49,297 nt of DNA from a virus: the IMG/VR virus record IMGVR_UViG_3300042305_000706, positions 1-49,297 of that record. One strand, written 5' to 3'. A model generated the notes under the pieces. It saw only the letters and a program-made list of their open reading frames with translations. It had not been told where the DNA came from and did not search any database. Shown piece by piece: positions 9,309-42,745 of this stretch. Within the stretch, counting starts at the first letter, position 1. Each line of letters starts with the position of its first letter. A program made the position numbers and the translations under genes.

Positions 9309-9338
9309 GTATGACAAGAAAAACGCCGTTACGTTCAA
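9309..9338 (-). promoter_or_regulatory. ECF-like promoter element driving the leftward helicase operon
   Basis: On the minus strand TTGAAC (9338-9333) is followed after exactly 17 bases by GTCATAC (9315-9309). The predicted start is within a few bases of the ATG at 9304, which would give an almost leaderless message. The element lies inside the first codons of the divergent HNH gene. It matches the class described in the findings. Confidence 0.65.
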
Positions 9339-9700: not shown

Positions 9701-9863
9701 GTCTTTTGTACATATCCACGGCGTTTTGCCAGCTTGTTTCAAACGGCTGATTCCATTCTTCCTCTGGGGGGAAGTTCCAAGGATAGGGCCTTGGATAGGA
9801 AACACAACCACTTGTAATAAGTAATGCAATTACTATCCCTGTTCCTTGAAGTCGTAGAACCAT
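9624..9863 (-). CDS. Small lipoprotein, possible outer spanin
   Basis: 79 residues. The N-terminus has a basic residue, a hydrophobic stretch (GTGIVIALLITSGC) and a lipobox-like TSGC with Cys at 20. The mature part is Pro- and Trp-rich early (SYPRPYPWNFPPEEEW) and then polar. A short proline-rich lipoprotein in a phage fits an outer-membrane spanin (Rz1 type), but no clear inner partner is fused to it. The 94-residue secreted coiled-coil protein at 10477-10761 is a weak candidate. The start lies within the end of the upstream gene (31-base overlap). Confidence 0.55.
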   Translation of the reverse strand: MVLRLQGTGIVIALLITSGCVSYPRPYPWNFPPEEEWNQPFETSWQNAVDMYKRLTAPKGKIWDPLMGNYQQDLSYGNQ

Positions 9864-10480
9864 AGCTCCTCCTCGCTTTCGCTGACCCAGCGGCTTCCTG
9901 TGGATTCACAGCTAAACTCCTGACTGAACACCTTCCAATCGGGCTTAGTGGCAAACTTCTTGGCGATAAACGATCCTCCGTCCATCCAAAGCACTCGGTT
10001 GTTGGGTTGGATAAAGAACTGACCATCGCCTTTGAACACATGCCCACACTTATGACCAGCAGCCAGTTCTCCGTAGCCAGACTGATACTGCGGGCCCAAG
10101 GCCCAATCCAGCGTAAACATATACTGAGCCTTCTCAAATGTGCGGTCTTTAAGCATAATATTCGCCGCACGGTTCTTACAGTAGTCAATAATACCAGAGG
10201 AACAGTAGTAGCTCATGGTATCCCAAAGCTGTATCCAGTCTAGAGGGTAGCTGGTTCCACCCTCTTCGTCTGTATGTAGGTAATGAATGGGAACCCTAGC
10301 ATGTTGGCTTCCATACTCGGTCATAACGCTAAACAACCCACACCTCTGTGGGATGGAGGTATAGTTGAATACCTCAACCACGATACGCTCTCTGGCAACG
10401 TTGGGTTCAAGGTCATAGAGAAACCCCGTGTCCAAAAAGGCAAAGAATACGGGGATGTTGACGTTGAGATAGTTGCTCAT
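9833..10480 (-). CDS. Hypothetical phage protein
   Basis: 215 residues, not recognised. It is aromatic-rich, with 'PVFFAFLDTGFLYDLEP', 'VEVFNYTSIPQRCGLFSVMTE', 'PLDWIQLWDTMSYY' and 'NNRVLWMDGGSFIAKKFATKPDWKVFSQEF'. No signal peptide or catalytic motif is evident; the fold may be mostly beta. Its ATG overlaps the upstream stop in an ATGA, so it is coupled to the secreted coiled-coil protein, with the lipoprotein gene behind it. Confidence 0.7.
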   Translation of the reverse strand: MSNYLNVNIPVFFAFLDTGFLYDLEPNVARERIVVEVFNYTSIPQRCGLFSVMTEYGSQHARVPIHYLHTDEEGGTSYPLDWIQLWDTMSYYCSSGIIDYCKNRAANIMLKDRTFEKAQYMFTLDWALGPQYQSGYGELAAGHKCGHVFKGDGQFFIQPNNRVLWMDGGSFIAKKFATKPDWKVFSQEFSCESTGSRWVSESEEELWFYDFKEQG

Positions 10481-10934: not shown

Positions 10935-10964
10935 AATAGACACTAGGTTTCGGGGTTTGTTCAA
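10935..10964 (-). promoter_or_regulatory. ECF-like promoter element, leftward
   Basis: TTGAAC (10964-10959), 17 bases, then GTCTATTG (10941-10934), preceded by an A/T-rich stretch (ACATAAAATAT). It would drive the leftward genes starting at 10761. It is the leftward counterpart of the rightward element at 11604-11633 across the divergent region. Confidence 0.65.
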
Positions 10965-11004
10965 ATATTTTATGTGTTATTTTTTATGGGAGCTTGCGTC
11001 ACTC

Positions 11005-11493
11005 GGCGGGGCTGGGGCCAGTCGCCCCGCCTTTAATAAGATTATTTTTATTAAGGAATTGATATCGTTTCTTTATTAAACGACTCCGTTACTTGAGAAC
11101 ACCGTATCGTCGCCTAAATCCCGTTGGATTAATAATTCCTTTGAGCTAGATTCTACCGACTGACTACACCTCGCCCCCGCAGGGGCAAAGGCAGTAGTCA
11201 AGATTTGGACTTCTCATTCCTTATGAGTGAGTTCCCCGCTCTATTCCACAGATCGTAGTCTAGGCTCCGAAGCCGCTATTAGACCATCAACAACTACAAT
11301 CGACCTCCGAGGGTATTATCCCTCGCGCTTACCAAATTACTTTGGATTCCCACGCCGCGTTTAATTTCAAGCGATGGGACGGATGACTGGCTGTAAGTGC
11401 GGCGGTTTGATCCTTGCATACCTCGTTACAGGTTCTGATGGCGTATGAAACCTCCATCCTAGGCTGGGTTGTCTGTCTAAGACCCACGGAGGA
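11005..11493. ncRNA. Candidate large structured noncoding RNA in the divergent region
   Basis: About 490 bases without a credible ORF, packed with inverted repeats: GGCGGGG/CCCCGCC (11006-11035); a nested pair TGACTAC/GTAGTCA (11161-11200) enclosing GCCCC-CGCA-GGGGC; CTCAT/ATGAG (11213-11227); GTCTA/TAGAC (11258-11284) enclosing GGCT/AGCC; CGAGGG/CCCTCG (11308-11325); and CCTCC/GGAGG (11451-11492) enclosing GGGT/ACCC. The density suggests a conserved RNA fold rather than spacer. The strand is undecided. A promoter-like element at 11478-11507 points leftward through it. It does not look like a tRNA, tmRNA, RNase P or SRP RNA. Large phage RNAs such as GOLLD or ROOL are possible classes, not claimed. 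Confidence 0.5.
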
Positions 11494-11507
11494 TATGCAG
11501 CGTTCAA
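11477..11507 (-). promoter_or_regulatory. ECF-like promoter element (18-base spacer), leftward
   Basis: TTGAAC (11507-11502) is followed by 18 bases and GTCTTAG (11483-11477). It is one base longer in the spacer than the other copies, so support is weaker. A TTTTT tract adjoins the first box. It would start a transcript running left into the structured region. Confidence 0.4.
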
Positions 11508-11520
11508 AAATAGTGCAAGC

Positions 11521-11583
11521 AAAAAAACGGGCGGGGCCCCAGAAAACGTCTTAGACAACGCCAGCCTGCAAGGAACCCCGCCC
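11521..11583 (-). terminator. Intrinsic terminator, leftward
   Basis: Read leftward, GGGCGGGG (11583-11576) pairs with CCCCGCCC (11536-11529) and is followed by G and seven T. The loop holds GTCTAAGAC-type sequence (11556-11548) that is the exact complement of 11475-11483, so an alternative long-range pairing exists. No leftward gene lies directly upstream, so its substrate is an antisense or read-through transcript. Confidence 0.5.
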
Positions 11584-11603
11584 AAAGTATTAATTGACCG
11601 AGA

Positions 11604-11633
11604 TTGAACACCATCCTAGCTTTGTTGTCAAAC
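11604..11633 (+). promoter_or_regulatory. ECF-like promoter element driving the rightward early operon
   Basis: TTGAAC (11604-11609), 17 bases, GTCAAAC (11627-11633). The ATG of the triple-HTH gene follows at 11642, so the leader is at most a few bases. The element is the reason the ATG was preferred over the TTG at 11594 as gene start. Confidence 0.65.
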
Positions 11634-11641
11634 CTCTCTTT

Positions 11642-12121
11642 ATGGAAACATTATCTATCCCTATCAACGAACTACTGGACAAAGCCCCGTCCCACACCAT
11701 TAGCGAATTAGCCACCATGTACCAGACCGACTATGGAACGGTCTACCGTATCCTAGCGAGATATAAAGTAGAGGCATTGAAAGCCCACGAACCCATCACT
11801 AAAGAAGTGTTGGAGGCGGTGTTTGAGGAGCCTACGACGATTGAGGAAGCTGCCGAGCAACTCCATAGCAACATTGGATCGGTTAGCTATGCCATCAAGA
11901 AGTTCGGGCTTTTTGGGGAAGGGAGGAAGCCGACGACCAAAGACAAGTTCAGTGGGTTTCGGGCTTTCAAGGTGCTGGGGTATATCTTCAACCACCCCGA
12001 AGAAAACCTAGCTTCTATCGGACGCCGCTTCAACTGCACCCGCGAATATGTGAGGCAGATCAAAGAAGCGGCTATTGCCGAAGGAATCATCAAGCGGGAG
12101 ATTGAGCCATATGAGCAATGA
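11642..12121 (+). CDS. DNA-binding regulator with three helix-turn-helix units
   Basis: 159 residues from ATG 11642. Three HTH segments follow one another: SHTISELATMYQTDYGTVYR (about 16-35), TTIEEAAEQLHSNIGSVSYA (about 65-84) and NLASIGRRFNCTREYVRQIK (about 121-140). The last resembles sigma region 4.2 (xxIGxRFxxTRExVRQIxxxA). No sigma region 2 is evident, so it is probably a transcription regulator or replication-origin binder rather than a full sigma factor. As first gene behind an ECF-like promoter it is a good candidate for the switch controlling the early operon. It contains no cysteine. Confidence 0.75.
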   Translation: METLSIPINELLDKAPSHTISELATMYQTDYGTVYRILARYKVEALKAHEPITKEVLEAVFEEPTTIEEAAEQLHSNIGSVSYAIKKFGLFGEGRKPTTKDKFSGFRAFKVLGYIFNHPEENLASIGRRFNCTREYVRQIKEAAIAEGIIKREIEPYEQ

Positions 12122-30082: not shown

Positions 30083-33000
30083 TTAGTAGGTAGACACTTC
30101 TCTGACGGCGCGGGCGCGGGCTCGCTCAAAGATTTGGGAGATGCGCCTCTTGCCACGCTCCCTCTCTTTTTCGGTGATCTCGGCATCGGGATCAAAGAGA
30201 TCATTGATGCGCTTCTTTACATCCTTGCCCACAATCTGGACAAACTTGTTGTATTGCTCCTCGGTCATTTGTGCCTCTTCGCCATCCACCAAAGCTTTGG
30301 CTCGCTGCGGACTGGGCATGTAGGGATAGATATCGTATTTGGCGAGGATGCGGGATTCGCGGCTGGGCTTGGTCGGGAAGGAAATAATCCTGCCAACCAC
30401 GCGATCCATCGTTGGCTTGTCTTCGCCAATCGGATCACCGAACAGGTTGACCCGCTGGGTTCCCAGTCGGCGGGCAAATGGCATTTGATCAATGATGATA
30501 CCCTTGATTCCTTGGGAATCATAGAGAGTAGGATCAAAGAAGCGATCAATCTGACGAACAAGGTTTGGATAAACCATGCCCATCTTGCCTTCGACATATT
30601 TGCCCAACGTAGCGACAGGATCTCCCCGCCTGCTTTGGATAGCTTGCATAAATTCCGCTGGGCCAGCAAAGAACGGAAGATCCATGATTACACTGGTTGC
30701 GGCGGTCATGGCAACAATAGCACGTTCGGCTCCGCTGGCATCATCTTTTGCATTGTATTGCTCCCAGTTCTGGTAGTTGGCCATCCAAGACAAGACGAGC
30801 GCCCAAGGTGTGAACTGATAGCTAATCTGAGGCCCGCCCATAAAGCTAAAGGTATGGGGGCGGTTGCGATCATCCAACCACTGCTTGCGCTCCTCTTCAT
30901 CTGACGGCCCCATCCCGCGCAGAGTCAGAAGTCCCGCCTTGACCAGACCAGCAGCAAGCCCCATCACCATGACGGAGGAACTTGCCTTGAGTGCCTGAGT
31001 ATAAAATTCAGACGAACCAACTTTTGGAGGAGCCACATAATACGGGGTATCCTTATCCAATAGGTTGCCACTACCATAGAACAGTCTCTTGTATCCATAG
31101 GGGGAGTAGTCTAGCCAGCGATTAAACAAGTTGGTAGGAGTGATAACGAAAGGCGCAGTGAATAGCTTGAAGGCATTGCGGAACCAAGGGTTGGCAATCC
31201 TCATGGTTAGATTGTTGAATTGCGCGGCAAGGAATCCCGCAAGACCTGTGGGCATATTGCGATACACATCAGTTAGTGCGCGGTCAAAGCTCTTATTACG
31301 AATCTCGGCGTCGATCTCGCCATCTTGAATCTCTATGGCTCGGAACTTGGCATCATTGCCTGTGTATCCCTCTTGCTCGGCTTGCTTGAGGGCCGCTTGG
31401 TATACATCGTCTCCCAAATTAAGAATCTGGTTGATTCGCTTTTGCTTGGCTTTTCCTTCCAGCCCCTCGTCTTTGGCCATCTTTGCCGCCTCGGCATAAC
31501 GCTGTCCCTCTGCGGATGCGGTATAGTTAAGGGCATCGGTGGCCTCCATGATGCGGGTCACATACTTCCATAGATTGAGAACTTTTGCTGGAGGCGACTC
31601 AAGCAGGGTCTTAGCAATGGCATTCATTCCCTCGGTGGATTCCAGAGCCACCCCGCCCTTGCGACCATAGTTGATCAATTCGACAGTCAGAGGGGTTTTC
31701 TCTTCTAGTCGGGGCATGTTAATGCGGAGACCAGTATTGAATACGTTAATCGCCTCCCTCCACCCCTTGCGGTAGCCAGCTATCAGTCCATTGAGGCGGG
31801 TGAAGTCTTTGTCTGCCACCGAACTTGCCAGTCCATTGACCCAGTTTCCAAGCAATGTGTCATTGAGGTTGATGAGGAAGGTTTCAACAGAAGATAGCAT
31901 ATTGCTGTAGAAGAATCCCGAACCCAAGTCGGACAGGCTAAATCCTTTACGGCGGGCAATCTCTGCCATCATGTTGCGGGTAAGTCTGCGGCGTTCCAAT
32001 CCCTCTGGCATGTCTTCGATGATCAGTGCCATCTCTTCGATTTGCTTGGCAAATTTTAAATCCCAAGTCGGAAGCTCAAAACGGTGGGCCATGACTTCGT
32101 AGGCATCCTTGTCGGTCAGGGCTCCAATGTTGACCAACTCAAAGAACTTCTTGAGCGGGCTTTGGGCTAAACGTTTTGTTTTTTCCTTTGGCTTTTTGAA
32201 TCGGGCAAGAGCTTTCTCGCGGCGTTCTTCAGCCTTGGCGCGGAAGTCTTTAATGATAGCGCGGGACAAATTGACGGCATCGGCATTGCTGACATTCATG
32301 TCGGCTACCAACTTCTCGGCAAGAGCCTTCTCAATCTCAATGCGAGTCTTCTTGCTGGAACGATACCAGTCATTGTATTTGCCGACAAGAGACTCGCCCA
32401 TAGCCTTCATCTTCTGGTTGACAAAGCGCATGACAAGTTTGTCGCTGACGGGGAACTGCTGGATGATGGGCTCTAGACGCTCCATGAACTCTTGCGCGGC
32501 TACAGCTTTTTTGTATGCGGCACTAGAAACCGTTTCTCCTCCACCCTGTTTAGCCTCCAGTTCCATCACCTTTAGAGAGATATCCTCTAAGGCTTTATTG
32601 AATGCCTCTTGGTATTTCTCCTTGTTGTTGAGGGCATCTTCAATGGCGGCTTGGAAGGAACGTTGGGTGGTAGTCTGACGCTTTGCTTCGGGCACAAAAC
32701 CCAAAAGGTTCTCAGTTAGTCTGTCGGTGAAGAGCAAAAGCGAAGGCGGGACTCTCTTCTTGGGATCGCGCATCAGGCGACGAGCCAGACGCTCGGAGAA
32801 CATCTGTTGGTAATCTTCCCAGATGGTTGGACGCTCTCCGTAGATGTATTTGTTTTCACGGGCCAATTCCTTCTTAACCCTCATGCGCTCGTCCTGCATT
32901 TCCTTGAACCGCTCTCGCTCGGCTTTGGCGGATTGGCGGGAATCCCGAAGCTTCTTGGCGGAATCTTCAATAGCTTGAGCAGTAACGGGGGACACTCCCA

Positions 33001-36000
33001 TGGCTGTAGCCTCGGCAATGAAGTTGGCGTTGTAGCGGCGGAGATGGCTATTAACCAAGTCAGATAGCGGGTCTGGTTGACGGCGGCGAACTTCTTCACC
33101 AGTTACTTTCTTGGCTGCACGAATGGCAAGCTTCTGTGCCTGCTCTTCGATGGTGAGCTTCTTAGCTTCCTGCTCTCCAGCCTTCTTTGCCGTCTTGTCG
33201 ATATTTGCCTTATTGGATTTGATGGCCGCATCGAAGGCGGAGTTATCAGCATCTTCCACATCCCGCTTGATCTTATCGATCTGCCCCTTGCGATTGGTGA
33301 TGTGTTTGGAGATAGCCTTGTCGATATCCCTGCGAACTTTCAAAAGAACCCCATCGGCCCCAAGGTCGGAGAATCGGGCAATGGCCTGTACACCTTGGCC
33401 CAACTCCTTGAAGTAGTCGTTTACGAAGTCTAGGAATTCTACATGGGCCTCCACCGCTGCTTTGTAGTCGGCTTCTTTGCCCTTCTTGTTCTTAGTGGAT
33501 TTGCGCTGGGCTATGATCTTGCGTAGGACAATCTGTGCCATCATGGAGCGGACTGGCATGGACACCCCATTGTCCATGGTGGTTGTGGCCTTGATTGCCT
33601 CGTCCACAGTAAGCCCGCTCATAACACGATTGGCTTCCTCAACGCTGACCTCATTGCGGAGAACTTCGTAGGCAAGGTTTATTTTGTTCTGCAATTCGCG
33701 AGGCAGTTCTTCCCTGATGCGCTCGGCAAAGCTGTAGGGTTTGACTTCGGGCTCCTCTTCTTTCTCGGCCTTGCGGCGGCTGGCCGCATCGGAGATCTCC
33801 ATGATTCCACGTTGGATCTCCACTTGCTTGCCAATGGCTTGGGCTAGGGTGGTTGCCGCTTCGGGCTCAAGGTTCGTATAACGAATGATGGCATTCTCAA
33901 GCGTTTCCACATCCCGCCCCGAATTCATCCACGCACTGGTGATGGTCTCAAGGGGGAGGGTTCCTTGCGGGGTTCCAGCGGCGGCACTTTGCTCGTTGGC
34001 CATCTGGAAGGCTTGCCCCATCACCTTAATGGTGGCGGCTTCGGGGGTTCCTTCTATCTGGTCTTCAACCTGTTCGGGGGTGATTTCAAATTCCTCTTCG
34101 GGCGCGAACAGGGGTTGGCCAACATCTGTAACAGACTCTTCCATTTCTGGAGTTATGTTAACTTTCCAATATTCTACGGAAGCCACACCCTCTAGCTCGT
34201 AATCTCCATTGTTTATTTCTGCGATGCGAAGGGCTTCTTGCACTGTTGTTATATTGCGAGATACCACATTGCCATCGGCATCGCGGACGGTATAAAGACC
34301 GCTGCCATCAGATGGGGAAATGGTAATGGGAAGCAGGTCTTTTTCTACTGTCGCTCCCCACTTCTTGACATACTTGCCAATTTCTTTCGGGAGCATTTCA
34401 TCATAAAATCCCTTCATTCCCTTGCCGCCAATCTTCAAGTCAAGACCGCGAAGTGCAAAAAATGCGGGATTTTCTTTGACGCCTTGCGGCCAAGGAGCGC
34501 CACGCCTTGCGTTGGCTCCTTCAATTAGTTTTGCGGCAACGTCTTTGCCAACAGTGTCTTCAAGTTCTTTTTCTGTGACTTTCTTCCCAGACCTTGCATA
34601 TGGTGCAATTTCTTGCCCATCTTTGCCCTCAATAACCAAATTGAACGTGCCATCGGCATTGGCAATAGCAGATGCCATGTTGATCTGGCGACTGAGATCG
34701 TATCTTTCATTTTGAGTTTCTCCAACAGTCCAGCCAATCCACTGCTTGCCGCTTGAAACGGCATCGACCAAAGCCCGCTTGAATAGCTGTAATCCCCAAT
34801 CTTTGCGGAACGGGGCATCAGAAACCGCCTGCATCCCCTCTCTTCTTGCCGCCTGTTTGAGGCGTCTGGTTACAATATCATATCTTTCTTGTCCTCGGAT
34901 TGTTTCGCGATTTTCTGGCTGAATATATTCGCGAACAATTGATTGCAAATCTCCAATCAGTGCTGTGTCTATATCAAAAATCTTTTGGGGTTCTGCCTCT
35001 AAAATAATATCCGTAAGTTCGCGAGGACTAAGAACATTGATAATTTCATTGGGAAAAAATTCTCCCTCATAACCATATTTTCTTCCTTGTTGGTGTAGGT
35101 CGGATTGAAATTCTTCGACAAGTGTCCCATCTCGTCCTTGACCGTCTTGCCTGTCTGTTGCTCTGTAGTGGGCCACATAATTCGGAGTGTCTGGGAAGTG
35201 ACTGGATGTGTATCCCTTCAGTGGTCTTGTCCTTACCGCTTTTACAATGGCCTCTTCTGGGCTCTTTGCCATAACGGCATTACCTAAAAACCTATTGTTT
35301 ACGGATACTTGATACTCTCCCACACCTTCGGCCATCTCTAAGAGATCTACCGTGAACACGCTAGATCCATAGTAATAAACCCCTAAATTGTTGGCTTCTG
35401 GTCTCTGTAGATCTTCAACGCGCAAATCCTGAATGGGTGTTGTAAGAACAACCTCACGATAGTTTTTGCCATTGGGAAGCACCAACTTTGGATCATTGTA
35501 TCTGGCTGGCCTTCCGCCCCTAGAACGAACTGATAAATTTTTTAGAAGTTCTTCTGCTTCTGTCTTTGCAATTCCTACCGCCTCATCTTTTGTGTCTGCA
35601 AGTATTTTCCACTCATAAAGATCTGAATCTTCGGAAATTCTTCCGCGAATAACCCACTCGCGACCATCTTTTGTTTCGATTGGATCTCCAACCCTCCAAT
35701 TAGTTGTATCTACCGAGACAACAACATCCTCTCCGCCCACAATGTCTTGAAGCCGAACTTCTTCAAATTGCATTGTTCCCTCATCCTGAATGTAGCGGAG
35801 GATTTGGTCTTTGGGGACCTTCCCATTGTTCTCCGAAGCTATGCGATCTATGGCGTCATTGATGCCGCTCCATTTGATTTCTTCGGGCTTGATCCCGCTG
35901 CCCTTGGAGGGATCAATAATTGCCTTAATCTGTTGTGGCGAAGACACATTGGGCATCTTTGCGCCTACAACCCGCTCTAACTGGGAGTAAAATGGAGCCG

Positions 36001-39000
36001 CTTCTGGCTCTGGGGCAAAATCGCCCTCAAATTCTTCTTCAAGGGCTGACTCTACAGCTTCGGCGCGAGCAATGCCCTCCTCGTTTATCTGTGCCTGATT
36101 CTCTACTAGAGAACTACTTAGGGCTTCTCCGAAAGAAATCCCCTCACCAGCGCCTGCGTCTTGTCTATCTCCAGCCGTGATGCTGCTTGGTAGATAGGCT
36201 CCAGTCTGCTCACCATCTTCTTCGCTTGTGGGTCGAGGGGAAACTTCTTTTGAAGGCTGTTGTACAAGACGATCACCTCCGACAACAGTTGTTCGGGGCT
36301 GTCCATCTGGCTCTTTAGAAGATCTTTCGTATTGTTCTCCAGTGAGTTCATTGTCGGTATCCTTTGTTTCGGCTGTTCGGAATTTGTTCTTGAGGCTAAT
36401 AATAGCATCGGGATGCTGATTTACAATAGGTAAAATTTTGTCAACCGCACTCTGGATGGCCCCAACCTCACCCAAATAAGCTTCGTTTTGTAGAATAAAG
36501 AACGTAAAATCAGATCCCTCATTCCTGTGGAGATGGTGGTTGATCTCGTGGATAAGGGTTTTGGCTATCGTTCTGGCCAGCATCCTGCGGCCAAACTCAG
36601 TCCTAGCATACTCATCCACCCTCTCTTCATAGATCGGGTTAACCAGAACGGACACGGGGTCGCGTGAGGTATTGACGCCTCCCCAGTTTTTGGAAATACC
36701 CACTCCATAGAAGTAATCCAGACTGTCCTCTTCGGACTTGCCAGTGGGAGCAACTGATCCCTTCTGGCTTTTCACTTTGTACCAAGTGTCCTCAAGGATG
36801 TTGTCTTCATTGCCCTTGCGGAGGGCTACAACCAAATCATCAGCAACATCAAAGACAGCCTTGGACAAATCCTCCAAGAATTTCTGTTCAAATGGCTGTG
36901 GAACAATGGTGGTATTGTTGTAAAGGGTTGGGGAATCCTTGCGCGGCTTGCCTCCACTTATATCCGTAAGCAGATTGAATTCTTGATCAAACTGCCTTTG
37001 GCGCTCCTTGATCCTGATGTCGTTTAGCAATTGATTAATATAATCCTTAACAACGCCATTCTGAAAATCCTCTCGACTGTTGGTGAATGGATAGGCCAAG
37101 GACGCCGCATCAAGACCGCCAGCATCAATATCCACAACAATGTTGTATGGAAGGGGATCTCCGCCCCAAAGCTTCAGGGGATCTATCTTTAGATTTTCTT
37201 TCTCAAACTGAAACAATCCGTTGCTGTATACGGACATGTTGTGGTTTTTTAAATTGCGAGTAGCGCCAGCAATCTCAATATCTTCATTCCACTTTGCTTT
37301 TCCGTCTTTTCTTTTAAGGCCAAGTCTTGATGATGCAACCCTTACTTTGATTGGTTTCTTAGCTCCAGCTATAACAAAATCCTGTTCAAACGTTTCTACA
37401 TTTGGAGCATCTTTAACGAAGTCTTCAAATGTATAAGGCTTTTTGCCTTGGCTTTTTTTAATTTCATCAAGAGTCCAAAGACCGGATGGCTCGTTTTGAA
37501 ATAGCCCAATAAGCTCATTTTGATATGAACCATAGTTATCATCAATAATCGTAAGATCATGGTGAATTAGTCTATCAAAGACTGTATATGGATTTTCAAA
37601 CTCAACAGTTTTGCCGTCAGAGCGTGTGATGCTTTTCTTGAATTCCAAGATAACCATTGTGCCATTCTGCCTGCTTGGATCTTCGGCAACATTCACGTTG
37701 AATTTCTTATCAACAAGTTCCTGCTTGGTAAGATCGGCCTTGGTAACAACACCATCGCGGACGGTTTCAACCATCACGCGATCAGCACTCATAAACATGC
37801 CAAGCTTGGCTAGACCAAATCCGCCAGATCCCTTACCAGAACGCTTAAATGTCCCACCAACCGTAAAGAATGCGTTTTGCAGAATTTCGGGGGTCATGCC
37901 TCCGCCATTGTCGGAAAACATCATCCTGACAATCTTCTCGCCATTAACCTCAAGCTCCTTGCGGGAATAACCAATTACACCACTGCCTCTCGGAATCTCT
38001 CCAGTTTCTTCGGCGTCCTTAATGGCATCAAAACTATTTTGGACGGTTTCTTTGACCACCACTTTGGGCAGTTCGGCAGTGTAAAGTCTTTCGCCTAGAA
38101 GCTGGAAGGTTCTTTCTTTCTCCATCTCCAAAGACATCTCTACCGTTTTGCTAGTTTCAGGCTCTGGAGCCATGTCAGGTTCTGGTTCTGGAGAAGGAGT
38201 GATGCCAGCCGCTCCGCGAGCCTTGACCCTAGCGGGCTCCACCAACATGCCAACATCAATAGATGCCTCAATGACTGCTGCCGCCATAGATCCCTTGGGA
38301 AGTTGCAGTATGCGCTGAATGGCATCCACGAAGGCTTGCCATAGGCTTTGCCTCGGATTGTTGGGATCTTTGAGTCCCTTGAGTAGTTCGCGGAACGAGG
38401 GCTCGGAAAAGGTCTGGGATACGAACTCCTCTATGTTTGCCAGTCCGTAGAGTTGTTCCGAATTAAGATCCTTGCGAAGCAGTCCCTTGGCCTGCAAATT
38501 CCTTGCCATGGCTTTGGAATTGTCGGCGGTTGGGGCTCCAGCGATTCCATTTTTCCCAAAGTATTGCTCGGTAATTCCAAGTTGTTCGATGGTGGAAACG
38601 TATAGAGAAAAAAGCCTACTGATGGGTTCGGGGGTTTTGGGATCGGCAACCAATTTATTGATGGCATCTAAATACGCCTTGCCGCGCCCCACTTTTTTGC
38701 GGGGCAGATATTCATACACTTGGTCTGCTGTAAGCGTGTGGCCAGCCTCATGCGCCAAAATTTCAACGGGCATTGGTATGGTAGATGGAAGCCCAATGAC
38801 GGATTTAACCCCACCCCATCGCCGCGCCCTTCCCCTCTTCTTTAGCGAGGAAAGACTTTGGATGGGCTCCAAATCCAAGATGGGCATATCCAACTCGGCA
38901 AGGATGGCCGCGACATCCTGCATCATTATTTCGTTGGGATCGGACTGGGCGATCTTGGAAAGATTAAGTCTGGATGCGGTCTTCAACGCCTCTCGCACCG

Positions 39001-42000
39001 TCTTGCCAATGGATTGTTTGGGAGGAATAGACTGCGGCCCCCAATCACTTCTTCCAATGGTTGGTGCGGGCTTACGGGCCCGCTCCTCTTGTGCCGCTCT
39101 GATTGCATTATTGGCCTGCTCTTCGGTGATGGCACCAGCAGTTGGCGCAACGGGCGGAGGCGTAACTGGCGGAACTACTGGAGGTGCGGGAGGAACATAG
39201 ATATCTCCATCCAGTGTCCAGCCTTGGGGCATGGTTACATTCGGGCCCACCTGATCCACTCCGATACGAAGGCCCTTGGAAATAGCTTCTGCCACTACTT
39301 CATTGGCTCCCGTGTCGATTTGGATCTTTCGGGCTTCAGGGGTCAGACGCGGGCGCTCGGCTTCAGGAATTATCGCAAGGCCAGCCTCAGTAATAACGGG
39401 CTGGTCTTTATAGATCTCAATCAATCCCGCCTCGGTCAAAGCCGTAACATCTTCAGGAGTTTGCTCCGTCCTCACAACTCGTAGCAGGGGTTCCAGATTT
39501 TCGACAGGCTCCCCAGCAGCACCACCACCAAATTCCTTTACCGCATTCTCCACTTCATCACCAAAGGTTCGCAAGGCATTGAGGGCCTGTTGTGGGTTTT
39601 CTTTGAATGCCTCAACCACCGTGGTGAAGGCTTGCTCTGGCAGGATGTTCTTGAACTCTCCCTGCTCAATCAAATCAATGTTGAACGTTCCCTTGTCGAT
39701 CTCTTGGGCAATGCTATTAATGACATCGCGGAAATTATTAATATCAATCGTTGCAGCCCGTTCTGCCGTGGGGATGATGGCCTCGCCAATGGATGAACGA
39801 AAGGATTCGATGAATCGTGTTTCTACCGCCCTTGCCACAGCCTCTTCACCAAGACGCGCAGCCTCTTCTTGCTCTTTGAGAAGTTGGGCCAGACGGGCAT
39901 TGGATTCTTTTTCGGGCGCGGGCGGCTGGACTGCGACTTGTTGCTTCAATGCTTCGGCAGACGCTGGGCCGTAGCGTTTGGCCTCTTCGGACTCTGCCGT
40001 GTCCTTGGCATCTTGCTGGGCCTTCCTTGCTTCGGCTTCGGCCACCACTCGCTCCATCTCTGCCTGTTTAGCTCTGGTGGTTTCAGAAAGCCCGATCATG
40101 CGAACAAGGGGAACCATGCCCACATTCTCCGCCATGAGTCGGCCAGCTTCGGTTACGGTAGCTTGTCCAACCTCGTTGACCTCCACCATCGGATTCTTGA
40201 TGCTGGGAAGAAACCGCCCCTCGCCCACACTGGTAATTCCAACAGCAACTCGCTCGCGACCAGTCAAAGATTCCGCGCCTAGCCCATTAGCAATCTTGGC
40301 CATGGCCGTAAGCCCGTCTTTGGTTTTAGGGGACACCGCCATTCCATCCAACTGATCCACCATCTGCTCGTTGACTACATTACGGCGCATGGGGGCCAAA
40401 ACTTCGTTGTAGTAAGATAGATCTGCGGATGCCAGTTTGCCCTCAAGTTGGTTGCGGGCAACTCGGCTGATTGTATCATCTTCTAAAAGTTCGGAGAGTT
40501 GCTGACGCTCCGCTTGCAGCGAATTCATCCTTGTGCGGTCAACGGCCACTCCACCCAAGTTCGCAGCCTCATCACTGGGCAATGTGGCGTCATATTCGCG
40601 TTGGAACTCTCCACCAATAGGAGAGCTTGCGCTGATGTTAGAAATATCCTGCTCTGCATCGGCAATGGACTGGCGGATGGATTCCATAGATGCTTCACGC
40701 CTTGCCATGGCCTTGGGAGCCTTCATGTAGTCAAAGCCGTATTTAAGTCCTTCAACCCCGCTACCCAACATGCCGCCAATAATCAAAGCCTTGAAGCCAT
40801 TGTTGACAATTTCAGATGTTGTTAAGTTCGGGTTAAAGGTTGCCTGTTCGACGAATCCCTGACCAATCTGCGCCACCAGTTCTTCAACGCCCTCCACAGT
40901 GCCTCCCCCTATAACATTTGGCATAAACCTGTCTAGTTGAGCCTTGTATGCTGGGGTGTTTAGCTTGGCCTTGATGGCGTCTGGCCCCTCTCTAAATGGA
41001 GACTCGGAGCCTCTTTTGCCACCAAGAATCGTAACAGTTCCCTCAATTAGTGCAGAGAGCGCGGCGGGAAGTTGGGCCTCTTTGATTGCTTCTGCCCTCG
41101 CTTGAGTAGGCTCCATGCCCCCATCGATCTTTTCTTTTTCCAAAGTCTGGATGGCCGAAGAGAGAACGCCGCCATAAGACTGGGCCATGACCGCACCGAC
41201 AGAAGACCCAAAGCCGATATTGCTAACGGTCTTGGGCTTAAATCCTGCCCTCTTGGCCCCAAAACCAACCGCACCACCAAAACCTACTTGCACCCCAACT
41301 TGAAGTGCGCCACTCGCAAGATCCTTAACAAGGGTTGGCCCGCCAATTTCTTGAGAAATGCGCTCAAGCCTATCAATCTCGTCACTGGTTTTGCTGGCTG
41401 CATCCAAGAAGGGATCAGCAAACTTTTGTGCCCCCAAAATAGAGGCTGTCGCCCCGACAATCGTTTGACCAGCACCAAGAAATCCAAGGGCTTGTTGCCT
41501 TAGTCCGACAACGGCTTGAACGCCAGCTTTGGGAATGTTGCTTAACCATCCGTCATTGCGCCCCTTCCATTCGGCAATTTGGCGTTCGGGTGAGACATTC
41601 TCAAGGTTGTTGTCTTTTACAAAACTGTTGAACTCACTGACATTTTCTTTCAGCCATGGATATTCAATTTTTGCTGCTTCTTTTTGTAACTGTGGAATAG
41701 CGGAAATAGCCGTGCGCTTTTTGGCATCGGAAATATCTAACGCATCAATTTCTCCCTTAATTCCTTCGGCATCCCACACATGGAGAGGAGAGATGCGGAT
41801 TTCGTTGTTGACGATCCCAACCTTGTTGGTTCCCTCGGCCAGATCCACCATGGCGCGGGCCTCGCGGAACAACCTCCCCTGCTCGGGGTTGTCCTGATTT
41901 ATTAGGGATTGGCGCAATTCATCATACTCTGGAGCGTTAGCATTGGACTCCAACAGGAACTGGTCTACTGACTGGCCACTGGCAAACGCTTGACCTATTG

Positions 42001-42745
42001 CCTCTGCCCCATTGTTGATCTTGGTCTCGCCCTCCTTGAACCGCTCGACATATTGGTTGGTAAGATCTTTTTCTTCCGCTTGATATTTGGCTTGGATAGC
42101 CGCCATGGCCTCCTTGCGTTTGTCAGTATCTTCAATGGTGCGAGCTTGGGCGTATTCCTGTTCGGCGCGAGCATCGATATCGTAGAGGGCCTCTGCTGCC
42201 TCATCCCCAAACACCCCACTCCCACGGCGATCTTCGATGTAATCGATGCGGGCCTTCTTTTGCCTTTCGTTGAATTTTTCAATCTGTGGCTGAAGCTCCG
42301 CCACCCTGTCTTGCGCCGATTGCGCCGAAAACCCTGAATTAAGAAGGCTGTTCCAAGTGGTTTGTAGTTCTTGCTCTTCTTCTGGAGTGCGAACTTCTTT
42401 AGCCCCAAGCTCTTGATACCTAGCCCCCAATTGTTCATAACCCCTGCGGGCCTCTTCAAATTCTTTGGTGGTTTTATCCCAGTCGGAAAGAAGTTGTTTG
42501 TTGGGATCTTGTTGGGGCTCGGTGGCGTTGGTTTTATATTTATCCCACCAATTGGCTTGCGGGGCCATCTCTGGTTCGGCCTCTGCGGGTACGGGCTCCA
42601 GTGTCGCTTCGGGCTCTGGCGCGGGTGTAGACTTGTATTTGTCCCACCAATTACCCTCTTGTGCTACTGGCTCGGCTTCCTCTTCTTCTGAAGCAACGGC
42701 AGCACCACCAGTTTTGTACTTATCCCACCAGTTGCCATTTGCCAT
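30083..42745 (-). CDS. Giant polyvalent virion protein with GHKL-ATPase and two HExxH domains
   Basis: 4220 residues, one quarter of the window. In order: three NWWDKYK motifs (5-11, 32-38, 65-71) on acidic Pro-rich linkers; coiled coil; Gly/Ala-rich hydrophobic stretches (about 420-620); Pro-rich linker near 1185; zincin HEAGH (1332-1336); GHKL ATPase with KETVQNSFDA (E1566, N1570), DNGGG (1612-1616) and GSGGFG (1639-1644); second zincin HEINH (2066-2070); a module starting FYSQLERVVG near 2252 and continuing to IGWTVGETQNERYDLS near 2672, as in phage polyvalent proteins; long coiled coils; a hydrophobic C-terminal part (about 3600-3950). Such proteins are packaged and ejected with the DNA, acting on host targets. 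Last gene of the leftward virion operon. Confidence 0.85.
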   Translation of the reverse strand: MANGNWWDKYKTGGAAVASEEEEAEPVAQEGNWWDKYKSTPAPEPEATLEPVPAEAEPEMAPQANWWDKYKTNATEPQQDPNKQLLSDWDKTTKEFEEARRGYEQLGARYQELGAKEVRTPEEEQELQTTWNSLLNSGFSAQSAQDRVAELQPQIEKFNERQKKARIDYIEDRRGSGVFGDEAAEALYDIDARAEQEYAQARTIEDTDKRKEAMAAIQAKYQAEEKDLTNQYVERFKEGETKINNGAEAIGQAFASGQSVDQFLLESNANAPEYDELRQSLINQDNPEQGRLFREARAMVDLAEGTNKVGIVNNEIRISPLHVWDAEGIKGEIDALDISDAKKRTAISAIPQLQKEAAKIEYPWLKENVSEFNSFVKDNNLENVSPERQIAEWKGRNDGWLSNIPKAGVQAVVGLRQQALGFLGAGQTIVGATASILGAQKFADPFLDAASKTSDEIDRLERISQEIGGPTLVKDLASGALQVGVQVGFGGAVGFGAKRAGFKPKTVSNIGFGSSVGAVMAQSYGGVLSSAIQTLEKEKIDGGMEPTQARAEAIKEAQLPAALSALIEGTVTILGGKRGSESPFREGPDAIKAKLNTPAYKAQLDRFMPNVIGGGTVEGVEELVAQIGQGFVEQATFNPNLTTSEIVNNGFKALIIGGMLGSGVEGLKYGFDYMKAPKAMARREASMESIRQSIADAEQDISNISASSPIGGEFQREYDATLPSDEAANLGGVAVDRTRMNSLQAERQQLSELLEDDTISRVARNQLEGKLASADLSYYNEVLAPMRRNVVNEQMVDQLDGMAVSPKTKDGLTAMAKIANGLGAESLTGRERVAVGITSVGEGRFLPSIKNPMVEVNEVGQATVTEAGRLMAENVGMVPLVRMIGLSETTRAKQAEMERVVAEAEARKAQQDAKDTAESEEAKRYGPASAEALKQQVAVQPPAPEKESNARLAQLLKEQEEAARLGEEAVARAVETRFIESFRSSIGEAIIPTAERAATIDINNFRDVINSIAQEIDKGTFNIDLIEQGEFKNILPEQAFTTVVEAFKENPQQALNALRTFGDEVENAVKEFGGGAAGEPVENLEPLLRVVRTEQTPEDVTALTEAGLIEIYKDQPVITEAGLAIIPEAERPRLTPEARKIQIDTGANEVVAEAISKGLRIGVDQVGPNVTMPQGWTLDGDIYVPPAPPVVPPVTPPPVAPTAGAITEEQANNAIRAAQEERARKPAPTIGRSDWGPQSIPPKQSIGKTVREALKTASRLNLSKIAQSDPNEIMMQDVAAILAELDMPILDLEPIQSLSSLKKRGRARRWGGVKSVIGLPSTIPMPVEILAHEAGHTLTADQVYEYLPRKKVGRGKAYLDAINKLVADPKTPEPISRLFSLYVSTIEQLGITEQYFGKNGIAGAPTADNSKAMARNLQAKGLLRKDLNSEQLYGLANIEEFVSQTFSEPSFRELLKGLKDPNNPRQSLWQAFVDAIQRILQLPKGSMAAAVIEASIDVGMLVEPARVKARGAAGITPSPEPEPDMAPEPETSKTVEMSLEMEKERTFQLLGERLYTAELPKVVVKETVQNSFDAIKDAEETGEIPRGSGVIGYSRKELEVNGEKIVRMMFSDNGGGMTPEILQNAFFTVGGTFKRSGKGSGGFGLAKLGMFMSADRVMVETVRDGVVTKADLTKQELVDKKFNVNVAEDPSRQNGTMVILEFKKSITRSDGKTVEFENPYTVFDRLIHHDLTIIDDNYGSYQNELIGLFQNEPSGLWTLDEIKKSQGKKPYTFEDFVKDAPNVETFEQDFVIAGAKKPIKVRVASSRLGLKRKDGKAKWNEDIEIAGATRNLKNHNMSVYSNGLFQFEKENLKIDPLKLWGGDPLPYNIVVDIDAGGLDAASLAYPFTNSREDFQNGVVKDYINQLLNDIRIKERQRQFDQEFNLLTDISGGKPRKDSPTLYNNTTIVPQPFEQKFLEDLSKAVFDVADDLVVALRKGNEDNILEDTWYKVKSQKGSVAPTGKSEEDSLDYFYGVGISKNWGGVNTSRDPVSVLVNPIYEERVDEYARTEFGRRMLARTIAKTLIHEINHHLHRNEGSDFTFFILQNEAYLGEVGAIQSAVDKILPIVNQHPDAIISLKNKFRTAETKDTDNELTGEQYERSSKEPDGQPRTTVVGGDRLVQQPSKEVSPRPTSEEDGEQTGAYLPSSITAGDRQDAGAGEGISFGEALSSSLVENQAQINEEGIARAEAVESALEEEFEGDFAPEPEAAPFYSQLERVVGAKMPNVSSPQQIKAIIDPSKGSGIKPEEIKWSGINDAIDRIASENNGKVPKDQILRYIQDEGTMQFEEVRLQDIVGGEDVVVSVDTTNWRVGDPIETKDGREWVIRGRISEDSDLYEWKILADTKDEAVGIAKTEAEELLKNLSVRSRGGRPARYNDPKLVLPNGKNYREVVLTTPIQDLRVEDLQRPEANNLGVYYYGSSVFTVDLLEMAEGVGEYQVSVNNRFLGNAVMAKSPEEAIVKAVRTRPLKGYTSSHFPDTPNYVAHYRATDRQDGQGRDGTLVEEFQSDLHQQGRKYGYEGEFFPNEIINVLSPRELTDIILEAEPQKIFDIDTALIGDLQSIVREYIQPENRETIRGQERYDIVTRRLKQAARREGMQAVSDAPFRKDWGLQLFKRALVDAVSSGKQWIGWTVGETQNERYDLSRQINMASAIANADGTFNLVIEGKDGQEIAPYARSGKKVTEKELEDTVGKDVAAKLIEGANARRGAPWPQGVKENPAFFALRGLDLKIGGKGMKGFYDEMLPKEIGKYVKKWGATVEKDLLPITISPSDGSGLYTVRDADGNVVSRNITTVQEALRIAEINNGDYELEGVASVEYWKVNITPEMEESVTDVGQPLFAPEEEFEITPEQVEDQIEGTPEAATIKVMGQAFQMANEQSAAAGTPQGTLPLETITSAWMNSGRDVETLENAIIRYTNLEPEAATTLAQAIGKQVEIQRGIMEISDAASRRKAEKEEEPEVKPYSFAERIREELPRELQNKINLAYEVLRNEVSVEEANRVMSGLTVDEAIKATTTMDNGVSMPVRSMMAQIVLRKIIAQRKSTKNKKGKEADYKAAVEAHVEFLDFVNDYFKELGQGVQAIARFSDLGADGVLLKVRRDIDKAISKHITNRKGQIDKIKRDVEDADNSAFDAAIKSNKANIDKTAKKAGEQEAKKLTIEEQAQKLAIRAAKKVTGEEVRRRQPDPLSDLVNSHLRRYNANFIAEATAMGVSPVTAQAIEDSAKKLRDSRQSAKAERERFKEMQDERMRVKKELARENKYIYGERPTIWEDYQQMFSERLARRLMRDPKKRVPPSLLLFTDRLTENLLGFVPEAKRQTTTQRSFQAAIEDALNNKEKYQEAFNKALEDISLKVMELEAKQGGGETVSSAAYKKAVAAQEFMERLEPIIQQFPVSDKLVMRFVNQKMKAMGESLVGKYNDWYRSSKKTRIEIEKALAEKLVADMNVSNADAVNLSRAIIKDFRAKAEERREKALARFKKPKEKTKRLAQSPLKKFFELVNIGALTDKDAYEVMAHRFELPTWDLKFAKQIEEMALIIEDMPEGLERRRLTRNMMAEIARRKGFSLSDLGSGFFYSNMLSSVETFLINLNDTLLGNWVNGLASSVADKDFTRLNGLIAGYRKGWREAINVFNTGLRINMPRLEEKTPLTVELINYGRKGGVALESTEGMNAIAKTLLESPPAKVLNLWKYVTRIMEATDALNYTASAEGQRYAEAAKMAKDEGLEGKAKQKRINQILNLGDDVYQAALKQAEQEGYTGNDAKFRAIEIQDGEIDAEIRNKSFDRALTDVYRNMPTGLAGFLAAQFNNLTMRIANPWFRNAFKLFTAPFVITPTNLFNRWLDYSPYGYKRLFYGSGNLLDKDTPYYVAPPKVGSSEFYTQALKASSSVMVMGLAAGLVKAGLLTLRGMGPSDEEERKQWLDDRNRPHTFSFMGGPQISYQFTPWALVLSWMANYQNWEQYNAKDDASGAERAIVAMTAATSVIMDLPFFAGPAEFMQAIQSRRGDPVATLGKYVEGKMGMVYPNLVRQIDRFFDPTLYDSQGIKGIIIDQMPFARRLGTQRVNLFGDPIGEDKPTMDRVVGRIISFPTKPSRESRILAKYDIYPYMPSPQRAKALVDGEEAQMTEEQYNKFVQIVGKDVKKRINDLFDPDAEITEKERERGKRRISQIFERARARAVREVSTY

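Follow-up and report, generated by a model that had tools for sequence, protein, structure and literature searches.

A conserved structured RNA of uncultivated phages and an adjoining hairpin with a co-evolving complementary loop, possibly its antisense regulator

Comparison of related phage contigs shows that the noncoding block at 10965-11583 of the window (the whole stretch of DNA that was analysed, a virus record of 49,297 bases) harbors a conserved structured RNA on the minus strand, here called Y. Just upstream of Y lies the sequence of a predicted small hairpin RNA, called X. The predicted X loop and the 5' end of Y are complementary, hypervariable and co-evolving, and the substitutions indicate that the pairing is between two RNAs. 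We favor, with moderate confidence, the explanation that X is a type-specific antisense RNA which controls Y, the two being separate noncoding RNAs of the minus strand.

The window encodes a terminase, a DnaB-type helicase, an exonuclease and a protein of 4,220 amino acids, and the block sits between divergent gene sets. The first gene of the rightward set, its ATG read at 11642, has a sigma-70 region 4-like domain; the leftward set opens with a 150-aa gene (10929-10477, minus) followed by a PurM-like gene. The motif TTGAAC-N16/17-GTC, likely a phage promoter with the look of an ECF-type promoter, occurs in 8 copies in the window as compared to 0.9 expected, two of them directly before both flanking genes. 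The sites are 9313-9338 (-), 10939-10964 (-), 11604-11629 (+), 13860 (+), 17091 (+), 47474 (-), 48672 (-) and 48792 (-); at several genes the motif is so near the start codon that mRNA there would be almost leaderless. The rightward gene (11642-12121, plus) encodes a protein of ~159 amino acids with helix-turn-helix and sigma-70 region 4-like matches, which is a candidate for the factor acting on this motif.

The block contains 20 inverted repeats of at least 6 nt and a perfect 8-bp GC hairpin stem at each end, with arms GGCGGGGC/GCCCCGCC within 11005-11031 and GGGCGGGG/CCCCGCCC within 11529-11583. In addition, GTCTAAGAC (11475-11483) and GTCTTAGAC (11548-11556) are complementary and grow to a perfect 10-nt inverted repeat. 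The stems, the bracketing GC hairpins and the long-range complement from which the original prediction started are all present where it had placed them. When compared with dinucleotide shuffles, the minus strand of the block folds with z = -4.1 (0/20 shuffles as good) and the plus strand with z = -2.3 (1/20 as good). The long-range pair and the GC hairpins at the two ends appear to contribute much of this energy excess. For the Y core by itself z is only -1.4, so that fold energy is weak evidence and the structure is proven by covariation. The features of the locus, in the direction of minus-strand transcription, are:

11603-11631, minus: candidate X promoter, TTGACA-N17-TTCAAT; a like motif is at the same place in 22/24 X-bearing loci
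11521-11596, minus: X, predicted hairpin RNA of ~75 nt; stem GGGCGGGG (11583-11576) / CCCCGCCC (11536-11529), T-run 11527-11521
11548-11566, minus: X loop A, GGCTGGCGTTGTCTAAGAC, complementary to the Y 5' end; duplex of -36.3 kcal/mol in the window
11490-11518, minus: sigma-70-like candidate Y promoter, TTGCAC-N17-TATCCT (TTGACT-N16/17-TAGNNT in relatives)
11478-11508, minus: overlapping second promoter-like motif, TTTGAACG...GTCTTA, 18 nt from TTGAAC to GTC; the motif recurs before other phage genes
11452-11483, minus: segment B, GUCUUAGACAGACAACCCAGCCU..., the initial ~30 nt of Y and loop A target; hypervariable among phages
11080-11483, minus: Y, structured noncoding RNA of ~400 nt (nhmmer homologs, 33 distinct sequences; covariation; covariance model matches)
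11437-11458, minus: Y helix 1, 11458-11454 / 11441-11437; double changes in 5/5 pairs
11392-11430, minus: Y helix 2, 11430-11426 / 11396-11392; double changes in 5/5 pairs
11349-11378, minus: Y helix 11378-11374 / 11353-11349; 100% of cells paired, double changes in 2 pairs
11308-11325, minus: Y hairpin CGAGGG-AUAAUA-CCCUCG; compensated in other groups, as read from the sequences
11251-11301, minus: Y helix 11301-11293 / 11259-11251 around conserved UCGGAGCC; double changes in 7/9 pairs
11164-11197, minus: Y helix 11197-11188 / 11172-11164, cap GCCCC...GGGGC; double changes in 5/9 pairs
11005-11031, minus: 3' GC hairpin, GGCGGGGC...GCCCCGCC, perfect 8-bp stem; GGCGGGC...GCCCGCC equivalents in many relatives
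10939-10964, minus: promoter-like TTGAAC-N17-GTC of the next gene (10929-10477, minus), separating Y from that gene

Searching IMG/VR with the PurM-like protein as query identified 80 loci. Iterative nhmmer searches identified a homologous noncoding block of ~500 nt in 39 fetched loci, located 5' of the PurM-like gene on the same strand, and two DNA pattern scans provided extra contigs. The resulting 33 distinct Y sequences, 28 of them at <97% identity, come from dozens of related uncultivated phage contigs and fall into a main clade and the deep groups L029/L014/L065, L045/L059 and L121 at about 45-60% identity, with L127 as an additional divergent type. The same phage proteins are encoded in the Y flanks looked at, which confines Y, as far as seen, to one uncultivated phage lineage. 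The searches made in named phages, plasmids and GTDB genomes returned no Y homolog: in named phages, a blastn search with the block retrieved nothing beyond a 33-nt piece from Bacillus phages (E 0.2), and one divergent Y searched against phages and the window block against plasmids gave no match. In bacterial genomes the conserved core had a sole match, in L126 (a Bacteroidetes MAG); this match covers 23/132 model positions within a protein gene and was rejected as chance. Protein coding is ruled out on both strands. The original prediction had described the block as gene-free and had named a conserved protein in one frame as evidence against an RNA; no frame is open throughout the homologs, and none is kept in Y.

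Y is a well-supported family of large structured phage RNA that is new to Rfam. Neither the window nor three divergent Y homologs matched an Rfam family, a relaxed E-value included, in agreement with the earlier statement that the block could not be assigned to a known large phage RNA. The tRNA and tmRNA searches of the window (ARAGORN, Rfam) likewise gave no match and revealed no tRNA-like or tag features in Y. Matches to mir-611 and H19_3 in the block score far under the Rfam gathering score and are due to chance. The covariation analysis proposed with the original prediction revealed abundant compensatory changes. In an alignment of 20 Y sequences, for which RNAalifold derived a consensus structure of 52 pairs, 28/52 pairs show double compensatory changes and 95.7% of cells are paired. 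The 28 pairs with changes on both sides compare with 12.8 in shuffles (0/500), a control inflated by relatedness, and with no more than 12 in versions of the structure shifted by 1-3 columns; the shifted control retains relatedness and the margin is still large, although it is somewhat flattered by deriving the structure from the same alignment. G.U pairs are common in the Y helices when read in the minus-strand sense, which favors the minus strand for Y. The claim that the block folds like a large RNA therefore survives as regards a large structured phage RNA, but the RNA is on the minus strand and the block comprises two units, X and Y, rather than one.

Within Y, helix 2 encloses the near-invariant AGGUAUGCAAGGAUNAAACCGCCG (11423-11400), which is almost unchanged in all homologs. 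The CGAGGG/CCCUCG hairpin is misplaced by the alignment and was recognised by eye in five groups; its counterparts are ACAGGG/CCCUGU in L029, CCAGA/UCUGG in L045, CCAGC/GCUGG in L121 and CGAGAA/UUCUCG in L127. Similarly, the helix 11301-11293 / 11259-11251 corresponds to GUUCACUA/UAGUGAAC in L045 and to GAGAUAAUU/AAUUAUCUC in L121. The 3' GC hairpin, which is without a clear U-run behind it, is a possible end of the Y unit.

The predicted X hairpin has an MFE of -32.5 kcal/mol (z -3.1). A GC hairpin with a T-run is found upstream of Y in 24 distinct loci and in L130, and at least 7 T among the first 9 bases behind the stem are present in 23/23 loci listed. Promoter-like hexamers 16-17 nt apart precede Y; together with the T-run these are the signals that point to separate transcripts. 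The X and Y promoters are consensus-like only. The candidate X promoter has the form TTGACA/TTGACT-N16-17-TANNCT or TATTTT, with TTCAAT in the window, and is not evident in two of the 24 X-bearing loci (L006, L014). In the window, a promoter-like TTGAAC-N17-GTCAAA of the plus strand (11604-11632) overlaps it in the opposite orientation. In front of Y, the TTTGAAC of the second motif is retained wherever upstream sequence is available.

Complementarity between the X loop and the first ~30 nt of Y extends over 20-30 bp in 25 distinct loci. The long-range exact complement of the original prediction is real but is only one section of this covarying RNA:RNA pairing. In 13/13 types the duplex starts at the identical GTC of Y, which lies 7 nt past the -10-like TATCCT/TAGNNT and is the predicted +1 of Y. 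Mean pairing energies are -37.6 kcal/mol for cognate and -24.9 kcal/mol for non-cognate combinations, and 0/200,000 permutations match the observed value (13 types). Across the 49-kb window, the Y 5' end pairs best with its own complement and next best with the X loop. The paired segments vary much more than the rest of the RNA: among Y cores that are at least 97% alike, the 5' ends average only 73% alike, and L001 and L002 combine identical Y cores with unrelated B segments, so that the paired segments seem to be swapped together, as one unit. Non-Watson-Crick positions in the 25 distinct pairs comprise 61 G.U vs 13 A.C, a scoring which treats both transition kinds equally and in which related sequences are counted rather than independent events; the excess of G.U argues for RNA:RNA pairing of minus-strand transcripts. 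It also bears on the idea that the block is a DNA element, such as an operator, a recombination site or a cruciform site, that folds by chance. Inverted repeats at a divergent promoter hub would fit this, but a preference for G.U over A.C in X:Y and frequent G.U in the Y helices are not expected of DNA pairing; largely refuted by this strand asymmetry, the idea is hardly tenable.

X and Y could also form one RNA of ~500 nt, in which the X hairpin, together with the pairing of its loop with the Y 5' end, builds a pseudoknotted domain at the 5' side, and what looks like a promoter between X and Y is a spacer. X, where present, always adjoins Y on one strand, a loop paired with downstream sequence is an ordinary pseudoknot, and the whole block, folded as minus strand, has a stability far beyond that of its shuffles. 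However, a T-run right behind the X stem and hexamers before Y are present in nearly all loci, the TTGAAC...GTC motif is also found before protein genes, the predicted +1 of Y is where the duplex begins, and several lineages possess Y without X, which makes a single RNA rather unlikely. Alternatively, X might be an activating or guide RNA, a functional partner with the X:Y duplex as the working complex. The 20-30 bp of complementarity are maintained as carefully as a structural helix, and the unrelated RNA Y2 (see below) shows the same partner layout. Since several Y lineages manage without X, and a hypervariable paired segment typifies specificity determinants rather than fixed assembly helices, we consider such a partnership unlikely.

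In the antisense control that we favor, Y would be a free-standing folded RNA of ~400 nt with its own promoter, and X would be an RNA of ~75 nt made just upstream of it, with a terminator-like hairpin end and a loop of ~35 nt whose antisense target is the initial ~30 nt of Y, counted from the predicted +1. X would meet the Y 5' end by a loop contact first and an extended duplex next, and may limit Y in one of three ways: the contact could prevent Y from folding, terminate Y synthesis prematurely or make the duplex a substrate for a double-strand RNase. It would act on Y of the same type only, as in RNAI/RNAII or c4/ant, because loop and target change together, apparently exchanged as a block. 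A type-specific X could serve timing control inside one phage and type-specific immunity between co-infecting relatives. We infer from the sequences that X and Y are separate transcripts, that X is a repressor with a role in immunity, and that Y acts as an RNA and not as a leader. The same layout in the unrelated X2/Y2 pair of sister phages, again covarying, and the precedent of c4 RNA in P1 and P7 count in favor of antisense control; the existence of Y types without X, the tandem position of X to its target and the consensus-like promoters count against it.

An upstream X hairpin is lacking in Y types L108, L121/L117, L127, L045, L059 and L065; Y can thus do without X. G009 is one of these X-less genomes, and no site in it stands out as a substitute for X. 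Sister phages that lack Y bear an unrelated short RNA-like element, Y2, at the same place, behind a long near-perfect hairpin, X2 (L007 5051-5271 and L055 5302-5543; same place in L015, L019, L022, L024, L032, L037, L049 and L054). A covariance search of the sister loci without a Y match found no remote Y. The X2 loop sequence complements the start of Y2, and loop and target covary in two sequence types. A phage tmRNA with the tag GTNQLALAA and a tRNA-Ile are found upstream of the PurM-like gene in L071 (5263-5617) and likewise in L072 and L070, and a tRNA-Met adjoins Y in L045 and L043. The occurrence of Y, Y2, tmRNA and tRNA at one site identifies it as a seat for accessory RNAs.

These replacements bear on the possibility that Y is a replication pre-primer at a phage origin, with X as copy-control RNA, like RNAII and RNAI of ColE1. 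Antisense pairing at the 5' end and variable loops are hallmarks of ColE1-type control, and the locus is near the DnaB helicase gene, between divergent transcription blocks. GC skew, however, is without a clear extreme at Y in the window, G001 and G009, and Y2 or tmRNA replaces Y in sister phages; we regard a pre-primer as quite improbable. A function of Y as a riboswitch- or attenuator-type leader, acting in cis on the 150-aa and PurM-like genes downstream, would suit its usual position upstream of the leftward gene block on the same strand. Since the next gene starts right at a promoter-like TTGAAC-N17-GTC of its own and the downstream neighbors vary, with a tRNA-Met in L045 and, in L117, L127 and L130, no PurM-like gene detected in the vicinity of Y, a leader is very improbable.

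Among known systems, ColE1 RNAI pairs with the 5' part of the large structured RNAII, and its variable loops define specificity groups. RNAI and other plasmid-type antisense RNAs are encoded opposite their target, which makes complementarity automatic. The predicted X:Y pairing resembles this in that the antisense contact likewise involves the 5' region of a large folded RNA, whereas X is in tandem to Y on the same strand, so that complementarity must be maintained by selection. X:Y shows the covariation-maintained complementarity to a target RNA that marks an antisense regulator. To our knowledge, no adjacent antisense hairpin RNA is known for GOLLD or ROOL, the large ornate RNAs of phages and prophages. 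Like these RNAs, Y is a long phage noncoding RNA with extensive covarying structure and sometimes lies beside tRNA genes (PMC12286853), but it measures ~400 nt, whereas GOLLD is often >800 nt (PMC12286853), adjoins a putative antisense hairpin RNA and matches neither the GOLLD/ROOL models nor any other Rfam family. The c4 RNA of P1 and P7, which is linked to heteroimmunity, is a small phage RNA with loops complementary to its target RNA and is type-specific (PMC12197685), as proposed for X. Unlike c4, which blocks translation of ant mRNA, X would act on an RNA without a conserved reading frame, and it has its own terminator-like 3' end and precedes a separate promoter-like sequence. True tmRNA holds the equivalent site in L070-L072, whereas Y has no tRNA-like domain, tag frame or Rfam match.

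Y is a well-supported addition to the few large structured phage RNAs, the function of which is a long-open question, and its predicted built-in, sequence-specific antisense partner gives a handle on what such RNAs do and when. X:Y suggests RNA-only specificity types in uncultivated phages, akin to plasmid incompatibility groups. Tentatively, there may be a class of phage RNA pairs in which a frameless large structured RNA that works as RNA is under the control of an antisense hairpin encoded in tandem, with loop and target hypervariable and co-evolving, providing RNA-only self/non-self recognition among co-infecting relatives, with the layout built on at least two unrelated RNAs (Y, Y2) at one site. 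No tyrosine-recombinase domain was found in G000, G001, G006, G008, G009 and G010, a small sample of incomplete records; as the searched Y-bearing records lack a recognised tyrosine integrase, an immunity role would need lytic co-infection. Such a domain was seen only in Y-less sisters (G002, G003, G007). The PurM-like gene (9833-10480, minus) carries the PHROGs label 'ferredoxin' and is labeled 'PurM/phosphoribosylaminoimidazole synthetase' in cyanophage and Pelagibacter phage records. The 4,220-aa protein (30083-42745, minus) has a match to a GHKL-type (HATPase_c_3) ATPase domain at residues 1561-1684, which is odd for a giant phage protein.
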